Part shown: in pieces, positions 36,140 to 53,651 of the stretch
Layout: every line of letters begins with the position of its first letter
Position numbering within the stretch: position 1 is the first letter of the stretch
Assembly (NCBI GenBank): GCA_905479265.1
Contig: CAJQLX010000033.1
Coordinates: 1 to 64,000 of the forward strand
Source: an uncultured Alphaproteobacteria bacterium
Lineage (GTDB): Bacteria; Pseudomonadota; Alphaproteobacteria; UBA7985
DNA length: 64,000 bases
Direction of reading: 5' to 3'
The notes under the pieces: model-generated
Told to the model about the DNA's origin: nothing
The model's database searches: none
The model's input: only the letters and a program-made list of their open reading frames with translations
Made by a program: the position numbers and the translations under genes

Positions 36140-37332
36140 CAGAGAACTCCGTCTTTCCGCAGCCTATCCAAAGTGGCGGCGTCTAGCCCCAAGCCGCCCC
36201 AGATTTCTGCCTCATCCGCCCCCAAAGCCGGGGGTGGTGTTTCGACTTTGGGTCGCGTTCCGTTAATTTTCAAGCCGGTTGAGACGACACGGATGGCTCG
36301 ATCAACGCCGTCCGGGCTGGGGAAGTCTTCGAGGAAGTCGCGGCTTTGCAGGTGATCGGATTGCAGGACTTGCGGAACGGTCAAAACCGCACCCGAAGGG
36401 ATGCCAAGGGCGTTCAACTCGGCCTCCCACACCAGCGCGGATTTTGTCCGCAGCGTGGTTTCTAGCGCCGTGCGCAAGGCGTGGCGGTTGGCTTTGCGGT
36501 CTTCGCGGGTGCGGTAGTTGGGATGGGCGAGCAAATCTTCGCGGCCCAAATGCTGGCACAGCATCGCCCATTGCTCGTCCTTGTTCGCAGCAATATTCAG
36601 CAACCCCTCGCCGGTTTGAAACGTACCCGACGGCGCTGAGGTGGGGTTTTCGTTGCCGTTTGCGGCGGGTTCTTGTCCGCCAATCAGATGGTTCGACAGC
36701 ACCCAACCCATCGTCGCCAGAACGCTTTCAAGCATAGATACATCGATCATGCAGCCCCGGGGTCGCGCGTTGAGCGCCGCGCTGATCGCCATCGCAGCGG
36801 TCAAGCCGCCAACGGTATCCGCGACCGGCGAGCCAACCCGCAGGGGCGCGGAAGTCGCGTCACCGGTAATGGACATAAGGCCGGAAGCCCCTTGGATGAT
36901 CTGGTCATAGGCTGGTCGACCAACCCACGGACCATCCTGCCCAAAACCCGAAATGGCGCAGTAAATCAGGCTGGGTTTTATGGCTTTCAGCGTTGGATAG
37001 TCCAAGCCTAGGCGGTCCATGACGCCGGGGCGAAAGTTCTCCACCAGCACGTCTGCGGTTTCGACCAACTGGAACAGCAGGTCTTTGCCGCGTGGGTCTT
37101 TTAGGTTCAGGGAGACGGACTTTTTTCCAGCGTTTTGGGCCAGAAACGAAATGCCCATGCCTGCTTCGTTCAAGGCGGGATCAGACCCCAAATTGCGCGC
37201 TAAATCGCCTCGGCCAACGGCTTCAACCTTGATGACCTCTGCCCCCAAATGAACAAGCTGGTGGCAGGCAAAGGGGCCAGCGAGCACGTTGGTTAGATCG
37301 AGCACGCGAATGCCGGCGAGTGGGGTGGTCAT
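36139..37332 (-). CDS. CaiB/BaiF-family (class III) CoA-transferase
   Basis: Transfers CoA between carboxylic acids. The 397-residue protein starts with the conserved PLAGIRVLDLTNVLAGPFACHQLVHLGAEVIKVE and has ENFRPGVMDRLGLDY. The catalytic aspartate is probably Asp172 in GSPVADTVGGL. It overlaps the histidine-kinase gene by 4 bases and the hydrolase gene at its other end, so all four are translated as one unit. It suggests that the substrate sensed by this two-component system is activated as a CoA thioester. Confidence 0.9.
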   Translation of the reverse strand: MTTPLAGIRVLDLTNVLAGPFACHQLVHLGAEVIKVEAVGRGDLARNLGSDPALNEAGMGISFLAQNAGKKSVSLNLKDPRGKDLLFQLVETADVLVENFRPGVMDRLGLDYPTLKAIKPSLIYCAISGFGQDGPWVGRPAYDQIIQGASGLMSITGDATSAPLRVGSPVADTVGGLTAAMAISAALNARPRGCMIDVSMLESVLATMGWVLSNHLIGGQEPAANGNENPTSAPSGTFQTGEGLLNIAANKDEQWAMLCQHLGREDLLAHPNYRTREDRKANRHALRTALETTLRTKSALVWEAELNALGIPSGAVLTVPQVLQSDHLQSRDFLEDFPSPDGVDRAIRVVSTGLKINGTRPKVETPPPALGADEAEIWGGLGLDAATLDRLRKDGVL

Positions 37333-38648
37333 GGGCTGTCCTCGGTCAATGCAGCGGCGGGAAAGATCAGGGTCACTTGCGCATTCTTGCCGGTGTCCTT
37401 TTCGATCCAGCCTTTGTGCAGATCCATGATTTCCTCAACGATGCTCAGGCCAAAGCGCTGCACGCTGGGTTCGCTCGGCCCTTTGGCGCGAAAGCCTGCG
37501 CCGTCGTCGGTAACGATCAGCCGGTCTTGCCGGACTGTGATGGTCGCGGTTGTTGCGCCGCGTGCGTGCTTGATGATGTTGTCGATCAGATTGCCAAGGG
37601 CTTCGAGCAGCAGCGCGGAATGACCCGACACACTCGCGCCAGCCTCGACTTGCAGGCCCAAATCCACCCCTGCGCGATAAGCGCGCAAGGACCAGTCTTC
37701 GACGGCTTTTTGAGCCAGTTCCTCCAGATTAACCGCGCCGAAGGAATCATCGCGGTCGGAGGGCTGCACACCGACACGACTGAGCAGCATCATTTGCTGC
37801 ACCAAATGGGCCAGATGGTCGATGCGCTTGGACAGCCCGCGCAGGTCCGGTTGGGTGCCTTCCATCGACGCAACTTCCAACTCGGTTTTCAGCTCGGCCA
37901 AGGGCGTGCGCAGTTGGTGGGCGGTGTTTGAGACAAAGCGCCGATGCGAGTTCAGCGTCTTTTCCAACCGACCAAAGAGGGCGTTGATCTCGTCCACCAG
38001 CGGCTGACCTTCGGGTGGGACTGGACGGCGGATGGCGCGCAAATCGCGTTCGCTGCGCTGGCTGACGGCATCGGCAAGATTGCGAAGCGGGCGCAGGCCA
38101 AAGTTGACGGCGTAGAGGGTCAGCAGGCTGATCATCAGAACCCCCACCACAAAAGCCAAAATAGCATAGCGCAAATAGAGTTGCAGGACGTTGGTGCGCT
38201 GGCCGAGCGTCTCAGCGATCAGGACCACAAACTCTTGGCTGGCTGAGTAGCTCAAAGCTTCATCGCGGATTGCGATCATCCGCATCGGCTCGCCGCGAAA
38301 ATCAATCTGCCGCAGTATCGTGTTGGATTCACCAAAAACCGGGAGCGGCAGGTTGCGATAGCCGGTGACAACCTCGCCAGAGGGCCACTTTTGCACCGAA
38401 TAGAACACGCGGTCTTCAGCCGAGTTTGTCAGCATCTGCAAGGCCGCATAGGGCAAATCCACCACCAAGGAGCCGTTTTCCAACACCACACGGTCGGCGA
38501 TGGCGAGGGCCGAGCCTTCGAGCACGCGGTCATAGCTCTCGGTCGTGGCGGAACGAATGGCCCAATAGATCATGGCAATCAGAAAGGCGGAAAGCGGAAT
38601 GAGCGGCAGCAACAGGAACATCAGCAATCGCTGGCGCAGGCTCATCAT
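37329..38648 (-). CDS. tctE: TctE-type sensor histidine kinase
   Basis: Membrane sensor kinase of the tricarboxylate type, 439 residues: helix at 10-30, periplasmic domain of about 125 residues, helix at about 160-180, HAMP-like linker, and HisKA domain with phosphoacceptor His244 in FVSNTAHQLRTPLAELKTE. The ATPase domain has NLIDNIIKHA and a degenerate second G-box (FGLSIVEEI). It overlaps tctD by 4 bases. It probably senses the ligand of the divergent TctC-TctB-TctA system, perhaps through the receptor or the orphan binding protein at 39432. Confidence 0.9.
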   Translation of the reverse strand: MMSLRQRLLMFLLLPLIPLSAFLIAMIYWAIRSATTESYDRVLEGSALAIADRVVLENGSLVVDLPYAALQMLTNSAEDRVFYSVQKWPSGEVVTGYRNLPLPVFGESNTILRQIDFRGEPMRMIAIRDEALSYSASQEFVVLIAETLGQRTNVLQLYLRYAILAFVVGVLMISLLTLYAVNFGLRPLRNLADAVSQRSERDLRAIRRPVPPEGQPLVDEINALFGRLEKTLNSHRRFVSNTAHQLRTPLAELKTELEVASMEGTQPDLRGLSKRIDHLAHLVQQMMLLSRVGVQPSDRDDSFGAVNLEELAQKAVEDWSLRAYRAGVDLGLQVEAGASVSGHSALLLEALGNLIDNIIKHARGATTATITVRQDRLIVTDDGAGFRAKGPSEPSVQRFGLSIVEEIMDLHKGWIEKDTGKNAQVTLIFPAAALTEDSP

Positions 38649-39319
38649 AGTGGGTGCGCTTCCAGCAGCATGTAACCGACCCCGCGCACGGTCCGCAGCT
38701 CAATCGCCGGGTGGTTCAGCCGTTTCCGCACGCGGCTGATGATGACTTCGATGGCGTTTGGGGTGGGCGGATCTGCGTTGTCATATAGGGCGCTGATCAG
38801 CGCGTCTTTGGAGACCACGGCGTTGGCATTGGTGGCGAGGATAGACAGGCAGGCAAATTCGCGACGGGGGAGGTCGAGATCGTCGTCGTTGAGCCGAGCA
38901 ATGCGGGCGGCGGTGTCGATCATCAACGGGCCAAGGGTCAGTTTAGCGTCAATGCCGCTCCCTTGTCGCCGGACCAAGGCCCGCGCCCGCGCCATCAACT
39001 CATCAAGCGCAAAGGGCTTGGTCAGATAGTCATCCGCCCCACGATCTAAACCGCTCACCCGGTCCCGAACGGCATCGCGCGCGGTGAGGATCAGCACGGG
39101 CGTCTTATCGTCTCGATCCCGCATCTCACCGAGCAGCGTCATGCCGTCCCCGTCGGGCAACGTTAGATCCAGCAGGACGATGTCCACGCGGAACTCACGC
39201 AGGAACGCGCGCGCAGACGACAAGTCGCTGGCGTGGTCCAACGTTAGTCCCGCAAGGGCAAAGGCGCGTGACACGCCATCGGCCAAGACCGGGTTATCCT
39301 CAACCAATAAGGCTCTCAT
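38645..39319 (-). CDS. tctD: TctD-type response regulator (OmpR family)
   Basis: A 224-residue response regulator with receiver domain (phosphoacceptor Asp51 in VLLDLTLPDGDG, switch Lys in YLTKPF) and an OmpR-type winged helix with VEVIISRVRKRLNHPAIELRTVRGVGYML (VEV variant as IEV). First gene of its operon; the promoter lies in the 112-base gap shared with the divergent binding-protein operon, which contains CTGTC/GACAG at 39340-39357. Confidence 0.92.
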   Translation of the reverse strand: MRALLVEDNPVLADGVSRAFALAGLTLDHASDLSSARAFLREFRVDIVLLDLTLPDGDGMTLLGEMRDRDDKTPVLILTARDAVRDRVSGLDRGADDYLTKPFALDELMARARALVRRQGSGIDAKLTLGPLMIDTAARIARLNDDDLDLPRREFACLSILATNANAVVSKDALISALYDNADPPTPNAIEVIISRVRKRLNHPAIELRTVRGVGYMLLEAHPL

Positions 39320-39339
39320 TAACCAATTTTCGCATGTTT

Positions 39340-39357
39340 CTGTCAGGCTGACGACAG
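39340..39357. promoter_or_regulatory. Inverted repeat in the tctD / binding-protein divergent region
   Basis: CTGTC and GACAG separated by eight bases, between the divergent starts. Candidate TctD binding site; not shared in exact form with the second TctD/TctE promoter region. Confidence 0.3.
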
Positions 39358-39431
39358 CTTACTTTCGTTAGAGTTTGAGTCACCTTGGGCAGTTTGTCTG
39401 TTTGCAGGGTCGCTTCTGGGAGGATAGCGGA

Positions 39432-40499
39432 GTGGGGAAACTGAGGCGCTCGTTCGCCTACCTGACAGCATTGGCTTGCCTGTTCTGTGCGCACTTCGCT
39501 GCTGCCGAACCCATTGTGCTGCCAGGGTCCGAGGATGAACGGCTGAACATTTATTCGACGGCTGATTACCTCGCCGTTGAACCGGTTCTGCGCGCCTATC
39601 AGGCGCTAAATCCGGGCCTGACCATCCACTATCATGAATTGCTCAGTCAGGAGCTGTATCAGCGCGTGCTCGATGAAGAGCAGCAAACGGCTGATTTTGT
39701 TTGGTCCTCCGCGATGGACCTGCAGATGAAGTTGGTCCACGACGGCTATGCCCGTCGTTTCACGCCCACCGCGATCGCCAGTCTGCCGGAGTGGTCTTAT
39801 TGGCGGGACGAGGCTTATGCCGTATCGGTCGAACCGGCGGTGATGGTTTACAACCGTCAAGCCTTCAAAAATATGGACGTTCCAGCGACGCGCGAAGATC
39901 TGTTGGCTTGGTTGCGGCGCGACGATGATCGTGCGTTTCAGATGGTCGGCACGTACGACATCGAACGCTCTGGGCTTGGCCTGTTGCTCGCTGCGCGCGA
40001 TGCGGATCAGAGCCGGGATTTCTGGACACTGGTCCAAGCGCTTGGGGCCAATCAGGTCGAGCTGTTTTCCTCGTCCAGCGGGTTGATCGAGCGTGTCGCG
40101 CGCGGTGACCTTTCGCTCGCTTACAACGTCCTGGGTTCCTATGCCGCCAGTCGCGCAGAAACGGCCTTGGACTTGGGCGTGGTGCTGCCGCGAGACTACA
40201 CGCTGGTCGTGAGCCGGGTGGCCTTTGTGCCTTATGCAGCGGTGAACGCCGATGCCGGTGAAGACTTCTTGGACTTTCTGTTGAGCCGTCGGGGTCAGCG
40301 GATTCTAAACGACGATGTCGGCTTTCCCGCAGTGCATGCGGACGTTGATTGGAACTCTACTCTCTTTCCCGAAAATGGTCTGACCCGTCGGTACTTGGCA
40401 CCGATGGAAGTGGACACACGCTTGCTGGTCTACTTGGACCAAGCGCGTCGGGAGAACGTGATCCGCCAATGGCGGCAAGCTCTGGGGGGGCCGCTATGA
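39432..40499 (+). CDS. Orphan extracellular solute-binding protein (ABC-type fold)
   Basis: A 355-residue periplasmic binding protein of the iron/thiamine-type extracellular family. GTG at 39432 is chosen since GGGAGGA lies about eight bases upstream and it starts the signal peptide (VGKLRRSFAYLTALACLFCAHFAAA). The mature part begins LNIYSTADYLAVEPVLRAYQALNPGLTIHYHE, typical of type II binding proteins. No ABC permease or ATPase is nearby; instead it heads the tctCBA operon and is divergent from tctDE. Binding proteins in this position may present ligand to the TctE kinase rather than to a transporter; this is inference. Confidence 0.83.
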   Translation: MGKLRRSFAYLTALACLFCAHFAAAEPIVLPGSEDERLNIYSTADYLAVEPVLRAYQALNPGLTIHYHELLSQELYQRVLDEEQQTADFVWSSAMDLQMKLVHDGYARRFTPTAIASLPEWSYWRDEAYAVSVEPAVMVYNRQAFKNMDVPATREDLLAWLRRDDDRAFQMVGTYDIERSGLGLLLAARDADQSRDFWTLVQALGANQVELFSSSSGLIERVARGDLSLAYNVLGSYAASRAETALDLGVVLPRDYTLVVSRVAFVPYAAVNADAGEDFLDFLLSRRGQRILNDDVGFPAVHADVDWNSTLFPENGLTRRYLAPMEVDTRLLVYLDQARRENVIRQWRQALGGPL

Positions 40500-40546
40500 T
40501 GGGCGATCTTCAGAAATCTGAAATCAGCATATTGGGAGGATTATCC

Positions 40547-41509
40547 ATGCTGAAGAAACTCGCTGTGGGTGCTGCGGCACTCGTTGCAACCAGCTCGGCC
40601 GCATCTGCGGAACAACTGGTTGATTCAATTCACTTCCTTATTCCAGGCGGCGCAGGCGGCGGCTGGGACGGTACGGCTCGCGGTACCGGTGAAGCTCTGA
40701 CGGGCGCAGGCATTGTTGGCTCTGCATCCTTCGAAAACATGTCCGGCGGTGGCGGCGGTGTTGCGATTGGTCACCTGATCGAGAACGCTGACTCCATGGA
40801 CGGCACACTGATGGTGAACTCTACACCCATCGTGATCCGGTCCTTGCAGGGTGTATTCCCGTACAACTTCTCTGATCTGACCATGATCGCTGGCACCATT
40901 GGTGACTATGGCGCGTTGGTTGTAACCCCGGGTTCGGCAACGACCCTTGGCGATTTGGTTGCGGCCTACACCGCAGACCCAAGCTCCATCGCTATGGGCG
41001 GCGGTTCTGTACCGGGCGGCATGGATCACCTGATCGGTGCGATGGTCATGAACGCTGCGGGTGCGGATGCAACAAAAGTTGCTTACCTGCCGTTTGATGC
41101 TGGTGGTGTGGCTCTGGCTGCGCTTCTCTCCGGTGAGATTGAAGTTCTCTCCACGGGTCTGGGTGAGGCTCTGGCACAGGCAAAAGCTGGCGAAGTTGAT
41201 ATTCTGTGTATCACCAGCGACGCTCGCGTTGCTGACGCTCCAGACGTACCAACCTGTGCCGAAGCAGGCGCTGATGGCGTTTACTTCGTAAACTGGCGTG
41301 GCTTCTTTGGCGCGCCGGGCCTGTCTGACGACAAGGCTGACGCTTACCGCGCTGCGATTGCTGCGATGTACGCGACCCCTGAGTGGGAAGCGGTTCGTGC
41401 GCGGAACGGTTGGGTGGAAATCCACAACCCGGGTGACGACTTCGTTTCCTTCTTGGAGAACCAAGAGCAAATCATCGGTGATCTGATGACCTCTATGGGC
41501 TTCCTCTAA
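40547..41509 (+). CDS. tctC: TctC-family (Bug) periplasmic solute-binding protein
   Basis: Receptor of the second TTT system, 320 residues. The frame is open far upstream, but ATG at 40547 has GGGAGGA just before it and starts a standard signal peptide (MLKKLAVGAAALVATSSAASA). The first ligand loop reads IHFLIPGGAGGGWDGTARGTGEAL, the form seen in TctC receptors for tricarboxylates, followed by ENMSGGGGGVAIGHL. Codons favour GCT/GTT, as in other receptors in the window. A hairpin at 41528 separates it from tctB. Confidence 0.92.
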   Translation: MLKKLAVGAAALVATSSAASAEQLVDSIHFLIPGGAGGGWDGTARGTGEALTGAGIVGSASFENMSGGGGGVAIGHLIENADSMDGTLMVNSTPIVIRSLQGVFPYNFSDLTMIAGTIGDYGALVVTPGSATTLGDLVAAYTADPSSIAMGGGSVPGGMDHLIGAMVMNAAGADATKVAYLPFDAGGVALAALLSGEIEVLSTGLGEALAQAKAGEVDILCITSDARVADAPDVPTCAEAGADGVYFVNWRGFFGAPGLSDDKADAYRAAIAAMYATPEWEAVRARNGWVEIHNPGDDFVSFLENQEQIIGDLMTSMGFL

Positions 41510-41555: not shown

Positions 41556-41620
41556 TCGTTCTCATGTCCAAGCTAACATTCTGTTTCTAAACAACTTTGC
41601 TCACCGTTAGGGGAGTGCTT

Positions 41621-42163
41621 ATGTCTCGCCTTTTGTCTGCTGATCGGATCGTCGGGGTTATCCTGCTGATTCTGTGTTGCCTGTTTACGTACTTTGCTTT
41701 TGATCTGGCCAAGACCATTCCGCCCTTCTTTAAAAACCAGCCCATGCGCGTTGACACGCTGCCAAGGATTTTGGGTGTTGCGGGGATCATCGCGTCAGTT
41801 GTCACCATCATTGCGCCAACCACGGGCGCCAAGAGCGCGCCTGAACACAAGCAGCTCAAGGAAAGTCAGGACCGGATGGCGGACTTGAGTTTCGCCAATT
41901 TTGGTCAAGCGAAGTGGGGGCAATTGGTCGCCATGATCGCGCTGATGATCGTTTATTCGACCTATTTGCGCGCGGGTGGGTTCATCCCCTCAACCTTCTT
42001 TCTGCTGCTGTTTGGCAGCATCATTTTGGGCGAACGCCGCTGGGTGGCGATGGTCCTTGTGTCGATCATAGCGCCGCTGGCGATTTGGCTGCTTGTGACC
42101 TACGTCCTCGACCGAACAATTCCGCCCCTGCCACGGGCTTTGATGGATATGATGAGGGGCTAA
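41621..42163 (+). CDS. tctB: TctB-family small membrane protein
   Basis: A 180-residue TTT small subunit with four predicted helices (about 8-28, 47-63, 105-122, 128-160) and a hydrophilic linker (GAKSAPEHKQLKESQDRM) between the pairs. ATG at 41621 is chosen because AGGGGAG precedes it; TTG at 41597 is in frame but lacks a site. It lies four bases upstream of tctA. Confidence 0.86.
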   Translation: MSRLLSADRIVGVILLILCCLFTYFAFDLAKTIPPFFKNQPMRVDTLPRILGVAGIIASVVTIIAPTTGAKSAPEHKQLKESQDRMADLSFANFGQAKWGQLVAMIALMIVYSTYLRAGGFIPSTFFLLLFGSIILGERRWVAMVLVSIIAPLAIWLLVTYVLDRTIPPLPRALMDMMRG

Positions 42164-42167
42164 GCGG

Positions 42168-43712
42168 ATGTTAGACGGTATCTTAACCGGCCTCAGTGCC
42201 GCCTTTACGTTTCAAGCCATTGGCCTTGTGGTTCTTGGCTGTTTGATCGGATCCTTTATCGGCATGGTGCCGGGTTTGGGGCCGATGCAGGTGATTGCGA
42301 TTATGATCCCCGTTGCCGTGGGCATCGGTGATCCTTCGGTGGCGATGATCATGCTCGCTGGGGTCTATTACGGCGCTGTCTTTGGCGGCTCCACATCGTC
42401 CATCCTGATCAACGCGCCGGGGGTCGCGTCCACGGTCGCAACCTCCTTTGATGGCTATCCGATGGCGCGCAAGGGCTTTGCGGGCAAGGCGTTGACCATC
42501 GCAGCAATCTCGTCCTTCGCCGGGGGGACAATCGGCGCGATACTGCTGACGCTGGCGGCCAAGCCGCTGGCTGATGTCGCACTGCTGTTCCAGTCGCCCG
42601 AATACCTCGCCGTGATGATCGTCGGGATGACGGCTGTTGCTGCTTTTGGCGAGCGGGGCCGGGCGTACAAGGCTGTGCTGATGGTGATTTTCGGGATGAT
42701 CCTCGCGTCGATCGGCGAAGGGTCGCAGTTCGCCAACCGGCCGCGCTTCACCTTTGGCTACGTGCCGTTGCAGGACGGGATTTCGTCGATCACGCTGATC
42801 ATGGGCCTGTTCGCTGTACCGGAAGCCTTCTTCCTGATCCTCGACCCCAAGCGTGGACAGTACAAAGGCGATGGTCAAAGCAAAGAAATCAACAACATGC
42901 GCATCAATGCGCAAGAAGCCAAAGAGATGGCCCCGGTCATCGGGCGTCAGTCGATCCTCGGCTTTCTGATCGGCGTCATGCCGGGCGCAGGGGCAACCAT
43001 TGCCTCGCTGATGGGCTATGCCATGGAGCGTAACATTGCGCCCAAGGCAAAGCGCGAAGAATTCGGCAAAGGCTCCCTGCGAGGGCTAACCGCGCCAGAA
43101 ACAGCGAACAACGCGGCCTCAACCGGTTCGTTTGTCCCCATGCTGACGCTCGGAATTCCGGGCTCAGGCACCACGGCGATCCTGCTGGTCGCGCTGATTT
43201 CGCTGGGCGTTCAACCCGGTCCGGCGCTGATCAACGACAACCCGGATATTTTCTGGGGCATCATTATCTCCATGTACTTTGGGAATGTGGTGCTGCTGAT
43301 CCTTAATTACCCGCTGATCCCGTACATCGCTAAACTGCTGGCAGTGCCGCGGACGTTCCTGATCCCGTTCGTGCTGTTCTTCTCGATGGTTGGCGCTTAT
43401 TTGGTGAGCCAGAACCCGACCGAGCTTTACACCATGATCGTGCTGGGCGTTGTGACGACGCTGCTGCGGCTGGCGAAGTTCCCGATTGCGCCGATTGTGA
43501 TTGGCTTCATCCTCGGCATTCGGATGGAAGACAATCTGGGCCGGGCGCTGACCGATCCGGACTACACCGGTTTCAGCTTTATTTGGGAACGTCCGATGAC
43601 GCTGGTGTTCTTGCTGATTGCTGCGGCCATGCTGTTCTATCCGATGATTGAGGGCCGTTTGGCCCGTCGTGATCGGAAAAAGGCACGCGACAGCCAAGTC
43701 AATCAGGATTAA
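42168..43712 (+). CDS. tctA: TctA-family large membrane protein
   Basis: The 514-residue translocating subunit of the second TTT system. It shows the paired loops FIGMVPGLGPMQVIAIMIP (near residue 29) and GVMPGAGATIASLMGYAMER (near 268) and the ETANNAASTGSFVPMLTLGIPGSGTTA segment. About twelve hydrophobic helices, ending in a basic cytoplasmic tail (RRDRKKARD). Immediately upstream of the AtuA-like gene (nine bases), so import and catabolism are in one operon. Confidence 0.94.
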   Translation: MLDGILTGLSAAFTFQAIGLVVLGCLIGSFIGMVPGLGPMQVIAIMIPVAVGIGDPSVAMIMLAGVYYGAVFGGSTSSILINAPGVASTVATSFDGYPMARKGFAGKALTIAAISSFAGGTIGAILLTLAAKPLADVALLFQSPEYLAVMIVGMTAVAAFGERGRAYKAVLMVIFGMILASIGEGSQFANRPRFTFGYVPLQDGISSITLIMGLFAVPEAFFLILDPKRGQYKGDGQSKEINNMRINAQEAKEMAPVIGRQSILGFLIGVMPGAGATIASLMGYAMERNIAPKAKREEFGKGSLRGLTAPETANNAASTGSFVPMLTLGIPGSGTTAILLVALISLGVQPGPALINDNPDIFWGIIISMYFGNVVLLILNYPLIPYIAKLLAVPRTFLIPFVLFFSMVGAYLVSQNPTELYTMIVLGVVTTLLRLAKFPIAPIVIGFILGIRMEDNLGRALTDPDYTGFSFIWERPMTLVFLLIAAAMLFYPMIEGRLARRDRKKARDSQVNQD

Positions 43713-43721
43713 ACCGCCCCT

Positions 43722-45071
43722 ATGGTCAAAGTCCTCATTCCTTCTGGTGCGCTCGGGATCAGCGTTGATCCCGATGCGCTAGAGCGCGGGTTGCAGATGC
43801 AGCCTGACATCATCGCCATTGATGGCGGCTCAACCGACAGCGGTCCGCACTACTTGGGCACCGGAACGTGCAAGTATTCGCGCGCGTCGGTGAAGCGTGA
43901 GTGGCGGCTGTTGATGCTGGCGCGGGCACGGTTGGGGGTGCCTTTGTTGATTGGCACAGCGGGCACCTGTGGCACCGACTCCATGGTGGATTGGCTGCTC
44001 GACATCACCCGCGAAATCGCGGCGGAAGAGGGCCAAAGCCTGCGCGTTGCGGCGCTCTATTGTTCCCAAGATACCGGGGCCGTGGCGCAGTCGTTTGCGG
44101 GTGGAGCGGTCTCAGCCTTGCCCGGCGCCCCCGAAATCTCCGCCAAAACCATCACCGATTGCAGCAATATCGTTGCCTTGGCCGGGGCTGAGCAGATACG
44201 CGCGGCGCTGGCGACTGGCGCTGAAATCGTGATTGCGGGGCGGTCTACGGACACGGCGGTTATCGCCGCTTTACCGCTTGCGCGCGGCTGTCATCCGGGC
44301 GGGGCTTGGCATGGGGCCAAGATCGGTGAGTGCGGGGCTTTGGCGACCAACAACCCGGCGTCGGGGTCCATCTTGATCGAATTCGACGACGAGGGCTTTA
44401 CCGTTCAGCCGACCGGCGAAGGCGTTTTGGCCACGCCAACGACGGTTTTCGCACATATGCTGTACGAAAATACGGACCCCTTTATCCTGTACGAACCCGG
44501 CGGGCATCTGGACGTCACCGAGGCGACCTATCAGCCCGTAAATGGCAACAGCGTGCGGGTGCAGGGCAGTGTCTGGAACCCCGATGCGCGGTACACGGTC
44601 AAGCTCGAAGGCGCGCAGATGGCGGGGTACCAAACCGCTTCGTTGGTGCTGGTTCGGGACCGGCGCTATGTGGGGGCAATCACGCAATGGATCCAGCAAC
44701 TCCAAGCCACGTTCGAGCAGCGCGAGGGCGATAATATCAGCGGTGACTACACGCTCGAATTCCGACTGATTGGCGCAAATGCGACGCTGGGGGGCTTGGA
44801 AACACAGGTCGAAGGCGCGCATGAAATTGGCGTTCTTTCGATCATCACCGCGCCGACCCAGCAAAGCGCCAACGACATTGCCAAGCTGCTGAACCCCTAT
44901 TTGCTGCACTACGCTCTCACCCCCAACGAGCCAATGCCGACCTTTGCCTTTCCGTTTTCGCCGCCAGAAATGGACCGGGGTGCGCTGCACGAATTTGTGC
45001 TCAATCACGTGCTTGAACTCGCCGACCCCATGGACGCGTTCCGGCTTGAAGTGAAGGAGATCGGCGCATGA
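43722..45071 (+). CDS. AtuA/DUF1446-family protein
   Basis: A 449-residue cytoplasmic protein of the acyclic-terpene-utilisation AtuA (DUF1446) family. Its enzyme activity is not established to my knowledge. Conserved features visible are IIAIDGGSTDSGPHYLGTG near the N-terminus, PLLIGTAGTCGTDSMVDW, ITDCSNIVALAGAEQI, VIAGRSTDTAVIAALPL and the basic/acidic EGAQMAGYQTASLVLVRD in the C-terminal half. The glycine-rich N-terminal loop hints at nucleotide, acyl-CoA or polyanion binding. It overlaps the DUF4387 gene by 4 bases (ATGA), suggesting a two-subunit complex. Context points to isomerisation, hydration or lyase chemistry on a tricarboxylate. Confidence 0.85.
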   Translation: MVKVLIPSGALGISVDPDALERGLQMQPDIIAIDGGSTDSGPHYLGTGTCKYSRASVKREWRLLMLARARLGVPLLIGTAGTCGTDSMVDWLLDITREIAAEEGQSLRVAALYCSQDTGAVAQSFAGGAVSALPGAPEISAKTITDCSNIVALAGAEQIRAALATGAEIVIAGRSTDTAVIAALPLARGCHPGGAWHGAKIGECGALATNNPASGSILIEFDDEGFTVQPTGEGVLATPTTVFAHMLYENTDPFILYEPGGHLDVTEATYQPVNGNSVRVQGSVWNPDARYTVKLEGAQMAGYQTASLVLVRDRRYVGAITQWIQQLQATFEQREGDNISGDYTLEFRLIGANATLGGLETQVEGAHEIGVLSIITAPTQQSANDIAKLLNPYLLHYALTPNEPMPTFAFPFSPPEMDRGALHEFVLNHVLELADPMDAFRLEVKEIGA

Positions 45072-45361
45072 GCTTGGTGCAGGATATTCGGTCAAAGAAC
45101 GCGGGGCCGTTCTGGATCACCATTGACGTGTTTTGCGCAGACGCTGCGGCCTTTGCGCGCTTGAACTCCGCGCTGACCACAGCAATGGTGGCACAGGCGC
45201 TGAACGCCGATCTGGCCCGAGTGCAGCGTTTCGACATTGCCGCACTCAACGTCATAAAATTCAGCGCGCCACGCGAAGTCGTCCAAGGCTCGCGCGCGGA
45301 TCGCGACATGCACGGCGCGTCCTATGCGGTGCTGATCAAGGAATTGGTCGACGCCCTCTGA
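45068..45361 (+). CDS. DUF4387-family small protein
   Basis: A 97-residue protein with no signal peptide or helix. Conserved-looking parts are IRSKNAGPFWITIDVFCAD at the N-terminus and FSAPREVVQGSRADRDMHGASYAVLIKEL at the C-terminus, rich in Arg, Asp and His. DUF4387 proteins typically accompany AtuA-like proteins and are probably their small subunit; the 4-base overlap here agrees. Function unknown. Confidence 0.83.
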   Translation: MSLVQDIRSKNAGPFWITIDVFCADAAAFARLNSALTTAMVAQALNADLARVQRFDIAALNVIKFSAPREVVQGSRADRDMHGASYAVLIKELVDAL

Positions 45362-45428: not shown

Positions 45429-46817
45429 GTGCAGGTTGATGTAGCGGTTCTCGGAGGCGGGAACGCGGCTCTTTGCGGGGCGATCAATGCGGCGTTGGCG
45501 GGGTGTTCCGTGTTGCTGCTGGAAAGCGCGCCCAAGCCCTATCGCGGCGGAAACTCCCGACACACACGCAATTTCCGCTGCATGCATCAGGCGCCGATTG
45601 CGCCGCTAACGGATTCTTATCTCGAAGACGAATATTTCGATGACCTGATCAAAGTGACCAAGGGCAACACGGACGAGACTTTGGCGCGCAAGGCCATTCG
45701 CGAGTCCGAAGCTTGCCTGCCTTGGATGCAGCAACAAGGCATTCGTTTTCAACCGTCCTTGAGCGGCACGCTGTCGCTATCCCGCACCAATGCGTTCTTT
45801 CTGGGTGGGGGAAAAGCGCTGGTGAACGCGCTCTATCGCCGGGCCGAAGCGCTGGGGGTTGAGGTGCGCTATGACACGGAAGTGACCCACGTCGATATGC
45901 AGGGCGAGCGGGTGACTGAGGTGGTTTTTACCGATGAACGCGGCGCGGAGCAGCGGGTGCAGCCCAAAGCCGTGATCGCGGCTTCGGGTGGGTTTCAGGG
46001 CGATACAGACTGGCTTGAGCGCGCTTGGGGACCGGGCGCGCAGAACTTTTTGATCCGGGGAACCAAGTACAACCGGGGTGTGGTGCTGCGTGATTTGCTG
46101 GACCAGGGCGCCCAGTCCGTTGGCGACCCGACTCAATGCCACGCCGTTGCGATCGACGGACGCGCGCCGAAGTTCGACGGCGGCATCGCCAGCCGGCTCG
46201 ATTGCGTGCCGTTCTCGGTGGTTTTGAACAAGCAGGGCGAGCGCTTCTACGACGAAGGCGAAGACGTTTGGCCCAAGCGCTACGCCATTTGGGGCCGACT
46301 GGTTGCCGCGCAGCCCGATCAGGTCGGTTTTGTCATCATCGACAGCCGCAGTTTAGAGCTGTTCATGCCCTCACTCTATCCGCCACTGGTCAGCGATACG
46401 CTGGCGGGACTGATTGATCAGATGGGGCTCCCCGCCGAACCAAGCCTCGCCTCAATCAGCACTTTTAACGCCGCCTGCGCCAATGATCTCAGCGGGTTTA
46501 AGCCGATGGAACTCGATGGGTTGAGCACGCGCGGGCTTGAACCGGCCAAGACCAACTGGGCGCGTCCCATCGTCGAGCCCCCGTTTTACGGCTACACCCT
46601 GCGTCCCGGCGTGACCTTTACCTATCTGGGTTTGAAGGTCGATGAGACATCGCGGGTGCAGATGCAGAACGGCCCAGCGGAAAACCTGTGGGCGGCGGGT
46701 GAAATCATGGCGGGCAGCATTTTGGGGCAGGGCTATCTGGCCGGTTTTGGCATGACCATAGGCACTGTTTTTGGCCGACAAGCAGGGCAGGAGGCCGGGG
46801 CTTATGTCCGAGGATAA
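45429..46817 (+). CDS. tcuA: FAD-dependent tricarballylate dehydrogenase-like protein
   Basis: A 462-residue flavoprotein of the fumarate reductase/succinate dehydrogenase family. GTG at 45429 follows AAAGGGAGG. The FAD motif is VAVLGGGNAALCGAINAALAG (5-25); GRGGNSRHTRNFRCMH, the active-site HPE-like segment and C-terminal LWAAGEIMAGSILGQGYLAGFGMTIGTVFGR are characteristic of TcuA, which oxidises tricarballylate to cis-aconitate in Salmonella. It works with the TcuB iron-sulfur/haem-type membrane protein encoded next, overlapping by 14 bases. Confidence 0.92.
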   Translation: MQVDVAVLGGGNAALCGAINAALAGCSVLLLESAPKPYRGGNSRHTRNFRCMHQAPIAPLTDSYLEDEYFDDLIKVTKGNTDETLARKAIRESEACLPWMQQQGIRFQPSLSGTLSLSRTNAFFLGGGKALVNALYRRAEALGVEVRYDTEVTHVDMQGERVTEVVFTDERGAEQRVQPKAVIAASGGFQGDTDWLERAWGPGAQNFLIRGTKYNRGVVLRDLLDQGAQSVGDPTQCHAVAIDGRAPKFDGGIASRLDCVPFSVVLNKQGERFYDEGEDVWPKRYAIWGRLVAAQPDQVGFVIIDSRSLELFMPSLYPPLVSDTLAGLIDQMGLPAEPSLASISTFNAACANDLSGFKPMELDGLSTRGLEPAKTNWARPIVEPPFYGYTLRPGVTFTYLGLKVDETSRVQMQNGPAENLWAAGEIMAGSILGQGYLAGFGMTIGTVFGRQAGQEAGAYVRG

Positions 46818-47949
46818 AGGCGCAGCAACACGCATGGAAAACCCACTCAGCGTCATCGAAGAAGCCGCGCGTCAGGTCAACATCTGCAACGCCTGCCGCT
46901 ATTGCGAAGGCTACTGTGCTGTGTTCCCGGCCATCACCTCAGCGCGCACGTTTGCCGAGGCTGATATCACCCAGTTGGCGAACCTCTGCCACAACTGCCG
47001 AGGCTGTTTCTACGCCTGTCAGTACGCGCCGCCGCACGAGTTTGAATTGAACCTGCCCAAGGCGCTGGCCGAAGTCCGGCAAGAAAGCTGGGAAAACTTC
47101 GCCTTTCCTCGCGCTTTGGGCACACGGTTTCAGCGCAGCGGCGCGGCCATTGCCGTTGTGGCTGTGCTGGCCTTTGCCGTCTTGTTCGCGTTGGCGCGCT
47201 TTGTGGGCGGGATTGGTGACTCACAGGGCGAGGGCTTTTATCGTGTCATGTCGCACACGGTCATGGTGTCGATTTTCATGCCGGCCTTTATCTTACCCAT
47301 GTTGGCCATGGCGGTCGGTTTGGTGCGCTATTGGCGCGCCACGCAGCCCACGGAACAGGCGTCTGGTGGCGGGCGGGGGTGGATGAATCCCCGTGCGTTG
47401 GCGCAGGCGTTTCACGATGCTGCCACCATGAAGAACCTCAGTGGTGGGCATGGCGAGGGCTGTAATTTCGAAGACGAAGACCGCTTCTCAAACCTGCGGC
47501 GCTGGCTGCATCAGGCAACGGCTTACGGCTTCATTTTGTGCTTTTTGGCGACCTCCAGCGGGACGGTTATGCACTATCTGTTGGATTGGCCCGCGCCCTA
47601 TCCGTTTTGGAGCCCGCCTAAGGTGTTCGGGGTGACGGGCGGAATTCTGCTCACCGGTGGAGCTTTCGGTTTGGCGTACCTGAAAACCCGCGCTGATCGC
47701 AATTTGGGCGATGGCCGTGCGTGGGGGGGTGAGATGGGTTTTGTGCTGCTGCTGGGCTCGGTTGGTCTCAGCGGTTTGCTGCTGTACTGGCTTGGCCAGA
47801 CGCCGATGCTCGACGTGCTGCTTGCCACGCACTTGGGCACCGTTTTGGCGCTGTTCCTGTTGCTGCCCTATTCGAAAATGGCGCACGGGTTCTATCGAAT
47901 GGCGGCGCTGGTGCGCGACGCACAGCGGCGGTTTGGCGCAGCTGGATGA
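46804..47949 (+). CDS. tcuB: Tricarballylate utilisation membrane iron-sulfur protein
   Basis: Re-oxidises the TcuA flavin and passes electrons to the membrane quinone pool. The 381-residue protein has two ferredoxin-like cysteine sets, C28-x2-C31-x2-C34-x3-C38 and C62-x2-C65-x2-C68-x3-C72, followed by about six membrane helices from residue 110. ATG at 46804 inside the tcuA end has AGGAGG upstream. The histidines in SHTVMVS, RWLHQATAYG and ATHLGTVLAL lie in helices and could ligate haem. Confidence 0.92.
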   Translation: MSEDKGAATRMENPLSVIEEAARQVNICNACRYCEGYCAVFPAITSARTFAEADITQLANLCHNCRGCFYACQYAPPHEFELNLPKALAEVRQESWENFAFPRALGTRFQRSGAAIAVVAVLAFAVLFALARFVGGIGDSQGEGFYRVMSHTVMVSIFMPAFILPMLAMAVGLVRYWRATQPTEQASGGGRGWMNPRALAQAFHDAATMKNLSGGHGEGCNFEDEDRFSNLRRWLHQATAYGFILCFLATSSGTVMHYLLDWPAPYPFWSPPKVFGVTGGILLTGGAFGLAYLKTRADRNLGDGRAWGGEMGFVLLLGSVGLSGLLLYWLGQTPMLDVLLATHLGTVLALFLLLPYSKMAHGFYRMAALVRDAQRRFGAAG

Positions 47950-49037
47950 CCGCACGCGTTCTTGCCACCGATGTTGCAAAACTGGCCCTAACAGCCCTGT
48001 TCGCGCTGAGCAGCGGATGGGTGTTCAGCCAATTCCGCTTGCCGGTGCCGTATATGCTTGGCTCACTGATTGGCGTTTGGGTGCTGGGCGCGGCGATCAA
48101 GCCTGCGCAACCTTGGCTGGGCGTCCCGCGGTGGTTCCATATTCCGGTGATTTTGGGTCTTGGAGTGATCGTCGGCGGGGCCATTGGGCCGGGCTTCTTT
48201 TCCTCGATCCAAGAATGGTGGTTTACGACGCTGGTGGTGATCGTTGCCACGGTGATCGCCACGACCGTTGGTTTTCTGGTGCTGTGGAAAGGCCGCCGTC
48301 GCCCGTGGCTGCAGGCCTTGCTGGGCGCCATTCCCGGTGGTCAGGCCGAGATTGCCGTGATCTCCCGCGATTATGTGGAAAAGGACTACGCCGTCGTTCT
48401 TTCCCATCTGGTTCGCGTTACCTTTATCTTCCTCTCCACACCGCTCATCCTCGCGCTGGTGGAGGGGCAGGACGCGGTTGAGCAGTCCTATGCGGTGCAA
48501 CAGGACTTGCCCGGTTTGCTCGATCTGCCCCCGCGCAAAATCCTTGAATTCGTGGCGATGGCGTTTGGCAGTTTTGTCATTGCACGCTGGATCCGAATGC
48601 CCATGCCGCACTTGCTGGGCCCCATGCTGGTGTCATTGGTGCTCAATGCCTTGGGTTGGGTGGAGACAGTCCGCCTGAACGAATTTGTGCTTCTGGCTCA
48701 AATCACCATTGGCGGGCAAATCGGTTCGCGGCTGAGCCGGGTGCCGTTTCGCGAAGTGGTCAGTTACCTGATCGACGGCGTGCTGGTGTCCATCGTCACA
48801 CTCAGCATTTACACCAGCTTCGCGATTGGCGTCGCCGCCTTGTTGGGCATGCGGCTGCTGGATGCCTATATCGGTTTTGTGCCGGGGGGCTTGTACGAAG
48901 TTACGGTGCTGTCGGTGCTGTTCGGCCTCGACGTTGCCTTTGTCGCCTTCCACAACACGCTGCGCGTTGTGCTGATCTATATCGGCCTGCCCATCGTTTT
49001 GGCGCGCATGCCGGTCAAATCGAGCAGCCCGTCCTGA
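47946..49037 (+). CDS. AbrB-family membrane protein
   Basis: A 363-residue integral membrane protein of the AbrB/AimC family (unrelated to the Bacillus AbrB regulator). It has about ten helices arranged as two repeats, each with a PxxxLLGPM-type segment (VPYMLGSLIGVWVLG and MPHLLGPMLVSLVLNALG) and PGGQAEIAVISRDY / VPGGLYEVTVLSVLF re-entrant-like loops. Transport function is unproven. Starts with an ATGA overlap after tcuB, so it belongs to the tricarballylate-type operon and may export or import an intermediate. Its stop codon abuts the convergent prpF-like stop with no base between. Confidence 0.85.
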   Translation: MTARVLATDVAKLALTALFALSSGWVFSQFRLPVPYMLGSLIGVWVLGAAIKPAQPWLGVPRWFHIPVILGLGVIVGGAIGPGFFSSIQEWWFTTLVVIVATVIATTVGFLVLWKGRRRPWLQALLGAIPGGQAEIAVISRDYVEKDYAVVLSHLVRVTFIFLSTPLILALVEGQDAVEQSYAVQQDLPGLLDLPPRKILEFVAMAFGSFVIARWIRMPMPHLLGPMLVSLVLNALGWVETVRLNEFVLLAQITIGGQIGSRLSRVPFREVVSYLIDGVLVSIVTLSIYTSFAIGVAALLGMRLLDAYIGFVPGGLYEVTVLSVLFGLDVAFVAFHNTLRVVLIYIGLPIVLARMPVKSSSPS

Positions 49038-50144
49038 TCAGTCCAGCAGAACGGCAGGAACGAAGATTTCGCCGGCCATGATCTTCTTCGCCGTGCGCAT
49101 GATCCCCGCCTTGTCGAACTCAGGCCCGTCCGGACCGTCGCGATAGGCCAACTCAACCTCAATCTGACCCTTTGGATGCTCCAGAACGAAGGTTTGCGAG
49201 GTGAAATCTGCTGCGCTGGAAACCTCTGAAACCACCGTGCCGGGCTGTGTAGCCGCTGTTGCAACGTTGATGGAGCCGGTAACGGCATGGGTCGGGTGAC
49301 AGCTTTGGGGGACGAAGTATCGGCTGGTGACGTGTCCGCCGTTCTTTGGCGGGCTGGCGATGCCCATTTTCGGCACAACTTTGCCCCGCGCATCGCCCAA
49401 GCCCATGCGCTCGGAAGCAACCAGCCGGGCCGCTTCCATCCGCGCCAGCAGCGCCGGATCATCCAGCGCGTCTTTGCTCTCATCCCCGCTGACGCCCAAT
49501 TCAGAGGCGCGGAACCAGATCATGGGCACCGCAACGTCGATCAGGGTGACGGTGAGGCCGTTGATGTCCTCGGACCGCTGACCGGTTGGAAACAACTTCC
49601 CGGTTTTGGAACCGACCACGTCGAGGAAGTTCATCACAACCGGTGACGCAGACCCCGCCACGCCGTCAATCCGCGTGTTGCCCATGTAAGACCATTGGCC
49701 CCCGGGCGTTTCCAAGACAGCTTCCATGAGCGCGTTGGTGTTGGTGTTGCGGATGGAGATGGACGTGATGGGGTCCGATGCCTCCACCAAGCCCATTTCC
49801 AGCGCAGCATGCCCCACGGCTGAGAGGATATTTCCGCAGCTGGGGTTTGTATCGACAAAGGGGCGTTCGAGGTCCACTTGGGCGAACAAATAATCGATGT
49901 CCACGCCCTCAACCGCTGAACGTGACAGCACGGCGGTTTTGGATGTCACGGGCGTTGCCCCGCCGACGCCGCCGAGTTGGGCGCTATCCACCTCGTCCGA
50001 GATGCCGTCGGTTGTCCCCAGTGCCGCGAGCAACACCGCGTCGCGCTTTGCCGGATCCGCTGGCAAGTCTTTGGCGTTCCAATAGGGGCCAGAGCTGGTC
50101 CCGCCCCGCATGAAAAGTGCTGGAATTCCCTTGAGATCTGACAT
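49038..50144 (-). CDS. PrpF-family isomerase (aconitate/oxalomesaconate isomerase type)
   Basis: A 368-residue protein of the PrpF family, with the diaminopimelate-epimerase fold; members isomerise methylaconitate, aconitate or 4-oxalomesaconate double bonds. ATG at 50144 has GGGAGGA upstream. Conserved parts: IPALFMRGGTSSGPYW at the N-terminus, DTNPSCGNILSAVGHAALEMG with the active-site cysteine, SPPKNGGHVTSRYF and SCHPTHAVTGSINVA. In context it would interconvert aconitate isomers made by TcuA or imported by the TTT systems. It is the last gene of the tctC-tctAB-prpF operon. Confidence 0.9.
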   Translation of the reverse strand: MSDLKGIPALFMRGGTSSGPYWNAKDLPADPAKRDAVLLAALGTTDGISDEVDSAQLGGVGGATPVTSKTAVLSRSAVEGVDIDYLFAQVDLERPFVDTNPSCGNILSAVGHAALEMGLVEASDPITSISIRNTNTNALMEAVLETPGGQWSYMGNTRIDGVAGSASPVVMNFLDVVGSKTGKLFPTGQRSEDINGLTVTLIDVAVPMIWFRASELGVSGDESKDALDDPALLARMEAARLVASERMGLGDARGKVVPKMGIASPPKNGGHVTSRYFVPQSCHPTHAVTGSINVATAATQPGTVVSEVSSAADFTSQTFVLEHPKGQIEVELAYRDGPDGPEFDKAGIMRTAKKIMAGEIFVPAVLLD

Positions 50145-50169
50145 GGCAAATCCTCCCAAAACGCGCGCT

Positions 50170-52419
50170 TTATGGCACGCCGAACATTTGTGGTTTCTTG
50201 AGATATTTCAGGACAGGATCGAGCATTTCGACCTCGCCAAACAATCGCTTGATCCCGCCGAGCGTCAGGCTCGGATTAACGAGGTCAGCGAGGAAAATCA
50301 GCAGCGCGACGGCAGCGGCGGCCAGCGCCAGATTCCACCACCATTTCAGCGGGCTGTAGCTCAACAGCAGGGTGACGCAGAACAGCGCGGTTGCGATCAA
50401 ATGACCGACTAAGGCGATGGCAACCACGTAACCGGCGATCCAGCCAAAGGCGAGCAACAGACTGCGCCGGCCCTCGGATTCTGCCAGATTGCGGGTATCG
50501 GCTTCTTCATCCTCCAACAGCTCTTGCTCGTCTTTGTTGAACAGCAGGCGGAACAGCGCGAGCAGGGCCAGTGGGAAGAACACCAGACCCAAGAAGTGCG
50601 GCATCTGTGCGTCGTTGATGTTTGAGCCGAAAAAGTAGAGCTTCTTGCCCCATGTCACCGGCCCAAACAGCATGTAAGCGAAGATCAGGACCACCACGCT
50701 GATAAAGGCGATGTTGGGCAGCTTTTCCCGCCACGTTCGGCTGAGCGTCATGCCGCTTTCGCGGTGCAGGCGGTTTTCGGATCGGTTGACGATGATGCCG
50801 TAGATGATGACCAAAACGATCAGCGCACCGATGATGCTCATCAGAATCCAGTCGATGGGGTCCATGTTGCCGCGTGCGATGCGCTGTGCGGCCCAGTTGA
50901 ACTTGGTTTCCATCGGACCGGCGAGGACAAAGCCGATCAGAAAGGCTGGACGAGACCATTTGAACCGGCGCAGCAAAATCCCCAAGCCGCCCAGCGTGAG
51001 CAGGGTCAGGAAGGAGTAGAACGACGCTGATTTGCTGACTTTGAAGACCGCAAAAAAGATGATGACCAGCAGGAAAGGCGCGAGGGTTGGAAAGGGGATT
51101 TTGGTCAGCCGGGCGATGGGCGCGCTCAGGCCGAAACAGAGCGCGGTTCCCATGACGTTGCCCAACATGAGCGTCCAAGCGATGAAGAACGTCACCACCA
51201 TGCCCGTAACCACGATGGTCGAACCGGGTAGGTTGAACTCGTCCAAAGGCTTGATCATGTCGAACATCGGCGGACCGGCTTCGATTGAGAAGATCGACAG
51301 AATGCCCAAAAAGACGGCCATGGACCCTGAACCGGGTAAGCCCAGCAACAGGGTCGGGACAAGCCCGCCGCCTTCTTTGGCGTTGTTTGCGCTTTCGGGG
51401 CCAATCACGCCGCGAATATCGCCCTTACCAAAGCTGGTGACGTCTTCACCGCGAGCGGCGACGATGGCTTTGGTCTGTCCGTAGGCGATCCAGTCAACCA
51501 CCGAGCCGCCCAAGCCCGGTACAATCCCGACCAGCACGCCGACAAAAGCGTTCCACAGGCTGATGAACTTGTTGTTCCACCAGTCCATGAAGCCTTGTTT
51601 CCAGCCATAGCCAAGCTTGGCGTCACCGGCGATGGAGCGGTTCTGGCGCAACAAATCGACGATTTCCGGCACGGCAAACATCGACAGGCCAATCATGGCC
51701 ACGCCCAAACCGCTGCGGAGGTACTTTTGCCATTCTTCGATGAAACCGTTGGGGTTCTTTGCGGTCAGGGAGTGGGGGAAAAACTGTGCGGTCCAGTCAC
51801 TGAACCCAACCAGCCAGTCGTATTCCTTGCCGGTAAAGCGGACAAAGCCATCCAGCGAGCCAGACCCCATCATGCCGACAAACAGGCCCAAGCCCGCCGC
51901 CAGAAAGCCCTTGAGCAGCGAGCGACCCGACAGAATGCCGATAAGCGCGATGCCAAAGACAGCCAGCATGAATTGCGCCGGCGTTCGAATGTAGGTGATG
52001 ATCGAGGCCGCAAAGGCGAGGATGACGGTCAGCACAACCACACCCAAAATCCCGCCAAACAGCGAGGAGACAAAGGCCGAAGACAGCGCTTGTGCGGCCT
52101 TGCCTTGCTTGGCCAACGGGAAGCCGTCGAGCACGGTTGCTTGAGACGCGCTGGACCCGGGAATGCCGAGAAGCACACTGGCAAAGGTGTCGGAGGTCGG
52201 GACCACGGCGATCATGCCAATGGCCATGGCAATCCCGGCAAGGGGTTCAGCTTGGAACTGTGTCAGAACGACAATGAGGATCGACATGCCGGCAATGCCA
52301 CCCAAACCGGGCAGAATACCAAGCGCGATCCCCATCAATACACCGAAGAAAACATACATGAGCACGCCCGGCTGGAGGATCAGCGCAAAGGCGGAGAAAA
52401 GGCTCTGTAACACGTCCAT
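50170..52419 (-). CDS. Fused TctA-TctB tripartite tricarboxylate transporter membrane protein
   Basis: A 749-residue membrane protein in which residues 1 to about 530 are a full TctA (ILPGLGGIAGMSILIVVLTQF near residue 34, IVPGLGGSVVDWIAYGQTKA near 298, ESANNAKEGGGLVPTLLLGLPGSGSMA), and the last about 180 residues are a TctB-like four-helix domain (from LPNIAFISVVVLIFAYMLFG) with an acidic linker EQELLEDEEADT between its helix pairs. Ordinary TctA and TctB are separate, as in the two other systems here. The fusion fixes subunit stoichiometry at 1:1. It lies between its receptor gene and the prpF-like gene. Confidence 0.9.
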   Translation of the reverse strand: MDVLQSLFSAFALILQPGVLMYVFFGVLMGIALGILPGLGGIAGMSILIVVLTQFQAEPLAGIAMAIGMIAVVPTSDTFASVLLGIPGSSASQATVLDGFPLAKQGKAAQALSSAFVSSLFGGILGVVVLTVILAFAASIITYIRTPAQFMLAVFGIALIGILSGRSLLKGFLAAGLGLFVGMMGSGSLDGFVRFTGKEYDWLVGFSDWTAQFFPHSLTAKNPNGFIEEWQKYLRSGLGVAMIGLSMFAVPEIVDLLRQNRSIAGDAKLGYGWKQGFMDWWNNKFISLWNAFVGVLVGIVPGLGGSVVDWIAYGQTKAIVAARGEDVTSFGKGDIRGVIGPESANNAKEGGGLVPTLLLGLPGSGSMAVFLGILSIFSIEAGPPMFDMIKPLDEFNLPGSTIVVTGMVVTFFIAWTLMLGNVMGTALCFGLSAPIARLTKIPFPTLAPFLLVIIFFAVFKVSKSASFYSFLTLLTLGGLGILLRRFKWSRPAFLIGFVLAGPMETKFNWAAQRIARGNMDPIDWILMSIIGALIVLVIIYGIIVNRSENRLHRESGMTLSRTWREKLPNIAFISVVVLIFAYMLFGPVTWGKKLYFFGSNINDAQMPHFLGLVFFPLALLALFRLLFNKDEQELLEDEEADTRNLAESEGRRSLLLAFGWIAGYVVAIALVGHLIATALFCVTLLLSYSPLKWWWNLALAAAAVALLIFLADLVNPSLTLGGIKRLFGEVEMLDPVLKYLKKPQMFGVP

Positions 52420-52470
52420 AAGGGGTGTTTCCTTGGGTGAATTGATCGAGGAAAACAGCCGATGGAACAG

Positions 52471-52497
52471 AGGGGTTAATGGAGAGAATTAACCCCT
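52471..52497 (-). terminator. Attenuator-like hairpin between tctC and fused tctAB
   Basis: Perfect 10-base inverted repeat AGGGGTTAAT/ATTAACCCCT with a seven-base loop, in the 106-base gap after the receptor gene on the minus strand. No long T-tract follows, so mRNA protection or partial termination is more likely than full termination. Confidence 0.6.
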
Positions 52498-52525
52498 CTA
52501 CCAACAGCACTAGGCCGCTGAGAAA

Positions 52526-53575: not shown

Positions 53576-53651
53576 GAGTTCCTCCCAGAACCAAAATTTT
53601 AGCGGCCTTCGCCCTCTCCCACAGAGGACTTGCATCGAGCCGATAGTTCTG

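Follow-up and report, generated by a model that had tools for sequence, protein, structure and literature searches.

A probable two-subunit C-C lyase of the CmlAB kind, with its own TTT importer and sensor, beside the tcuAB genes of an uncultured alphaproteobacterium

The window analysed was the whole 64,000 nucleotide stretch of a contig from an uncultured alphaproteobacterium. It contains an AtuA/DUF1446-family gene followed by a DUF4387 gene. The gene order on the plus strand is TctC, TctB, TctA, AtuA, DUF4387, TcuA, TcuB and an AbrB-like gene (Table 1). Both the AtuA-like and the DUF4387 ORFs scored above the Pfam cut-offs in a profile search (gathering cut-off for PF07287 AtuA: 22.8 bits). 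The first-pass annotation, made from the sequence alone, had placed the two genes between tctA and tcuA with an overlap of four bases. The same coordinates were found and the overlap was ATGA at 45068-45071. It had also placed tcuB and an AbrB-family gene after tcuA on the same strand, as was confirmed by profile matches (TIGR02484 and PF05145). Promoter and terminator scans gave no signal exceeding chance. DUF4387 was found beside AtuA in all 80 of the nearest AtuA homologue loci and, because the two are kept as a pair throughout, the pair is not a chance reading.

Table 1. Genes of the pair, of its importer and sensor module and of the adjacent tcuAB module.
Feature	Position	Strand	Basis
Sensor histidine kinase, module of the pair	37329..38648	-	Conserved neighbour of the pair
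Response regulator, module of the pair	38645..39319	-	Conserved neighbour of the pair
SBP_bac_6 periplasmic binding protein, likely of a three-component sensor	39375..40499	+	PF13343
TctC, periplasmic binding protein, TTT importer of the pair	40529..41509	+	PF03401, 64.8 bits
TctB, small membrane subunit, TTT importer of the pair	41597..42163	+	Sited between tctC and tctA; homologue in loci L002, L003 and L005
TctA, large membrane subunit, TTT importer of the pair	42168..43712	+	tblastn survey
AtuA/DUF1446-family large (catalytic) subunit, putative CmlA-like lyase subunit	43722..45071	+	449 aa; PF07287, 73.7 bits
DUF4387 small subunit, CmlB-like	45068..45361	+	97 aa; PF14330, 78.8 bits
TcuA, tricarballylate dehydrogenase flavoprotein, second module	45429..46817	+	TIGR02485, 577 bits; PRK08274/NF006130, 640 bits; both above cut-off
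TcuB, second module, putative start codon	46804..47949	+	TIGR02484, 361 bits (cut-off 247)
AbrB-family membrane protein, second module	47946..49037	+	PF05145, 208 bits
PrpF/4-oxalomesaconate-tautomerase-like isomerase, second module	49038..50159	-	PF04303, 313 bits; NF033377, 422 bits (below cut-off of 440)
TctA-family permease, second TTT importer, 749 aa with C-terminal extension	50170..52419	-	PF01970, 287 bits
TctC-like binding protein, second TTT importer	52526..53635	-	PF03401, 35 bits

A PDB sequence search gave one match per subunit, to the chains of entries 9ERQ and 9EVF only. These entries hold a two-chain complex deposited as 'citramalate lyase'. Chain A is 456 aa ('Citramalate lyase, subunit A (cmlA)') and chain B is 105 aa ('subunit B (cmlB)'). 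Entry 9EVF, released on 2025-10-08, is titled 'Citramalate lyase - ADP - pyruvate complex'. Residues 3-438 of the window AtuA aligned with residues 6-441 of 9erq_A, full length (E = 3.3e-82), and the window DUF4387 matched 9erq_B (E = 1.6e-8). AlphaFold models of the two window proteins had pLDDT values of 92.7 (AtuA) and 96.1 (DUF4387). Their significant PDB fold matches were 9evf_A (TM 0.94, E = 1.6e-53) and 9evf_B (TM 0.82, E = 1.3e-7) only. CmlAB and the window pair each consist of two subunits, which belong to the same families and are of similar length. They are also alike in predicted fold, in carrying every invariant residue and in the 4-base gene overlap, which on the CmlAB side is that of Escherichia coli O157:H7. 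By sequence and predicted fold the pair joins this recently characterised kind of enzyme. The earlier view that AtuA/DUF1446 and DUF4387 are without a firmly assigned reaction is outdated, a homologous two-chain complex having been deposited as citramalate lyase.

Over the stretches compared, the E. coli O157:H7 proteins ECs_0760 and ECs_0759 shared 92% and 88% identity with the two 9ERQ/9EVF chains, respectively. The genes for these two proteins overlap by four bases. Around them are glmS/L/E, mal and fumD, with the methylaspartase/glutamate mutase genes on one side and fumD on the other. The glutamate-fermentation genes of E. coli O157:H7 lead to citramalate, fumD encoding a mesaconase that makes (S)-citramalate, and the DUF1446 gene of this cluster was recorded as unknown (PMC4682846). 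A single run of glmS-glmL-glmE-mal-AtuA-DUF4387-fumarase was found in Prevotella nigrescens. For the enterobacterial relative, then, the reaction is named in the PDB and the gene context agrees. No publication behind 9ERQ/9EVF, DUF4387 or cmlAB was found in a literature search, so the reaction assignment of CmlAB rests on the deposited names and the gene context.

A two-subunit enzyme formed by both genes had been proposed in the first-pass annotation. This is supported by the solved homologous heterocomplex, by the universal pairing and by a natural AtuA-DUF4387 fusion, a 693-aa chain in one other alphaproteobacterium (locus L162). In hhalign comparisons DUF4387 aligned over 86 columns with the 'AtuA_ferredoxin' domain at the C-terminus of long AtuA proteins (probability 93.6%, E = 2.1e-7). 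Short and long AtuA proteins also aligned in their main domains (E = 8.3e-22), the motifs GR-D, EC and YE-x-x-DP being retained. On these alignments DUF4387 is the C-terminal domain of AtuA split off as a protein of its own, and the family is explained as a detached domain. Long AtuA proteins resemble the window pair in their homologous main domain, in a C-terminal domain homologous to DUF4387 and in the acetate-releasing chemistry proposed for them. They differ in being a single fused chain of about 600 aa, in acting on a CoA-thioester substrate and in being very distant in sequence. The same type of bond is broken in citramalate cleavage and in the long-AtuA step, with acetate released from a 3-hydroxy acid. 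The long-AtuA step has been given to liuE instead by another review (PMC4097962). Of the extended open frames that surround DUF4387 in several genomes and were tested as fusions, L162 alone was real.

The window AtuA is 34% identical to CmlA. This divergence could mean that the pair has lost lyase activity and has another role on the same fold, such as regulation or a hydratase function. Such a loss is very improbable, as all 19 invariant columns of a 43-member AtuA alignment are present in the window AtuA, among them D34, S37, D39, R174, D177, K200, E203, C204, H245, E249, E296 and E368. All seven invariant DUF4387 residues, including S9, K10, D20, K64, R69 and D80, are present in the window DUF4387. 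The invariant residues of both proteins are candidates for nucleotide and substrate binding.

The neighbourhood of the pair was surveyed by tblastn in the 80 nearest loci. Of the 68 loci that could be scored upstream (at least 3.5 kb of upstream sequence), 66 had TctA or TctC, and the co-occurrence with TTT genes that had been singled out for checking therefore holds. Two transporter types occur beside the pair, about 63% and 38% identical to the window TctA; the TTT link is therefore not mere inherited order. An SBP_bac_6 homologue, beside a histidine kinase and a response regulator, was found near the pair in 53 of the 80 loci. No other catabolic gene was conserved near the pair among the 80 nearest loci, and an importer, a sensor and the pair without another catabolic enzyme fit a one-step cleavage to central metabolites. 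The CmlAB cluster differs in having genes for glutamate mutase, methylaspartase and mesaconase in place of the importer and sensor. As a three-gene set (37329-40499), the histidine kinase, response regulator and SBP_bac_6 genes are conserved near the pair in most Rhodobacterales. The set likely senses a ligand by means of a separate binding protein.

The downstream neighbours bear on a different proposal, namely that the pair is an isomerase, hydratase or lyase acting on tricarballylate or aconitate directly before or after TcuA, and so an undescribed step of the tricarballylate route. The gene order fits this in the window, in L002, in L003/L241 and in genome G565. There is also a weak association at the genome level. 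DUF4387 was present in 27 of 289 alphaproteobacterial genomes, TcuA over the cut-off in 20 and both in 5, against 1.9 expected (p = 0.03; p = 0.08 minus the window genome). However, the four other alphaproteobacteria with both families (G015, G087, G122 and G213) have them on different contigs or 370 kb apart. The co-occurrence survey, named beforehand as the refuting test, found tcuA largely absent elsewhere: it was seen in 1 of the 69 nearest loci that could be scored downstream (at least 4 kb of downstream sequence; 80 loci in all), and also in L002, where the contig ends early. Linkage of the pair to tcuA is confined to the genus of the window, where the two lie side by side in G563 and G565. 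Even there tcuA is missing from two of the five genomes carrying the pair, G564 (79% complete) and G567 (94% complete), with no tcuA over the cut-off anywhere in either genome. The pair in turn is absent from tcuAB loci elsewhere (L214, L217, L222, L224 and L226), which have AbrB, PrpF and TctA2/TctC2 homologues. Cis-aconitate, the product of TcuA, feeds the TCA cycle already, and no such enzyme is required. A step next to TcuA is quite unlikely on this evidence, and the neighbourhoods do not support the undescribed step. Of the enzyme types suggested, lyase stands through the CmlAB match; the role on the tricarballylate route does not.

On the evidence of these neighbourhoods, the window brings together two modules that each have a TTT importer of their own. 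The pair probably takes no part in TcuAB tricarballylate oxidation, and tcuAB is a separately importing module placed alongside it in this genus. The window TcuA and TcuB pass the NCBIfam cut-offs for these two enzymes; their module is separate from the pair and neither requires nor usually accompanies it. The genes for the PrpF-like isomerase and the second TTT importer (49038-53635) are convergent to the tcuAB-AbrB genes. Elsewhere, in L222 and L226, tcuAB has an AbrB-family gene nearby and no pair, and PrpF occurs with tcuAB in L214, L222 and L226. The PrpF-like neighbour was considered as part of the pathway of the pair and was rejected, as it accompanies the tcuAB module.

Several further features of the second module and of the rest of the genome were observed. 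A PrpF-like isomerase and/or TctA2-TctC2 beside tcuAB recurs in other alphaproteobacteria (all five tcuAB loci above). This points to a joint module for trans-aconitate and tricarballylate, with PrpF as a possible aconitate isomerase. In the second TctA the TctA profile spans only residues 20-494 of the 749, so this protein is probably a TctA-TctB fusion. A second PrpF-family gene is present in the same genome (G000:C24:34680-35717; L242), with no tcu or TTT homologues within the 14 kb examined. A further TctA-type permease at 25654-27147 represents a third TTT system inside the 64 kb.

The reading that we favour, with reasonable though not full confidence, is that the pair is a two-subunit C-C lyase of the CmlAB kind with its own TTT importer and sensor, performing a one-step cleavage outside TcuAB oxidation. 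The homology and fold match to the solved complex, the subunit pairing and the module structure were computed in this analysis. An acetate-releasing retro-aldol lyase for a TTT-imported 2-hydroxy diacid is the best reading of the reaction, the class of which is fairly secure. ATP activation is probable. It is hard to cleave free acetate from a hydroxy acid without activation of the carboxylate, and citrate lyases use a thioester. ADP and pyruvate are known as ligands from the database title of 9EVF only, for the enterobacterial relative, and the ADP suggests that ATP forms an acyl phosphate before retro-aldol cleavage.

We infer the substrate, the one-step pathway and the acyl-phosphate chemistry as follows. 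The TTT importer, under the sensor of SBP, histidine kinase and response regulator, would take up a 2-hydroxy-2-substituted dicarboxylate. ATP would turn the leaving carboxymethyl group into an acyl phosphate and the 2-hydroxy acid would then split by retro-aldol, the R-S-K-N-A-G loop of DUF4387 completing the active site. The products would be acetate (or acetyl phosphate) and a 2-oxo acid, which would be pyruvate if the substrate is citramalate. With an importer, a sensor and one enzyme only, the products would have to enter central metabolism directly, and this suits pyruvate and acetate. The overall reaction, hydroxy acid to acetate and 2-oxo acid, would be that of clostridial citramalate lyase and citrate lyase (CitDEF type). 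In contrast, the proteins of those enzymes are unrelated to the pair and have an acetyl-thioester prosthetic group. CitDEF-type lyases use an acyl carrier.

The substrate itself is possibly not citramalate, because residues beside the invariant motifs differ from those of the CmlA clade. The window AtuA was nested, with good support, in a TTT-linked clade apart from the E. coli/Prevotella/Klebsiella (CmlA) clade. About 40 positions are fixed differently between the two, several next to invariant motifs (T176/T178 in the window clade versus Y179/P181 in the CmlA clade, S40 versus P43 and T82 versus G85). Other window residues that differ between the clades are W196, G202, G205 and P406-T407-F408. 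Members of the CmlA clade adjoin class I fumarases, which as mesaconases produce (S)-citramalate. Two deeper relatives on the side of the window (L160 and L163) have a second, paralogous LeuCD isomerase/hydratase beside the pair, which plausibly supplies citramalate from citraconate and could supply 2-isopropylmalate instead. Clade, residues and neighbours are all in keeping with an enzyme of the same class that acts in the TTT clade on another substrate: (R)-citramalate, 2-isopropylmalate, another 2-alkylmalate, or citrate cleaved without CoA. The LeuCD cases number just two, however; such a shift is a substantial possibility, somewhat short of an even one. Citramalate of either hand has a roughly even chance of being the substrate, which would otherwise be another 2-hydroxy diacid.

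A wider proposal has two parts. One is that the lyase of the window clade needs ATP, does without CoA and acts not on (S)-citramalate but on another acid, for example (R)-citramalate or another 2-alkylmalate. The other is that the AtuA superfamily as a whole, whether split (with DUF4387) or fused, forms one class of retro-aldol lyases that release acetate. We regard the two together as tenable and rather less probable than their denial. If the clade is such a lyase, marine Alphaproteobacteria have a route in which branched hydroxy acids are imported and then cleaved by a single enzyme. The known CoA-dependent route, in a study of itaconate-type acids, accepted (S)-citramalate but neither (R)-citramalate nor citraconate (PMC9875883). 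A lyase acting on the latter two would thus fill a gap.

The pair is common in Rhodobacterales and is listed as of unknown function in family libraries, and it gains a testable reaction. On this reading, marine bacteria may need no more than an importer and a single enzyme to bring in branched hydroxy acids and cleave them.

Other neighbours of the pair were seen in the more distant relatives. A 2-hydroxyacid dehydrogenase also lies beside the pair in L160 and L163, and L163 adds a CitMHS symporter and an MmgE/PrpD protein. A citraconate or 3-methylmalate catabolic operon is possible there. In L170 and L172, on Variovorax and Cupriavidus plasmids, the pair adjoins hydantoinase A/B and a 2-hydroxyacid dehydrogenase.
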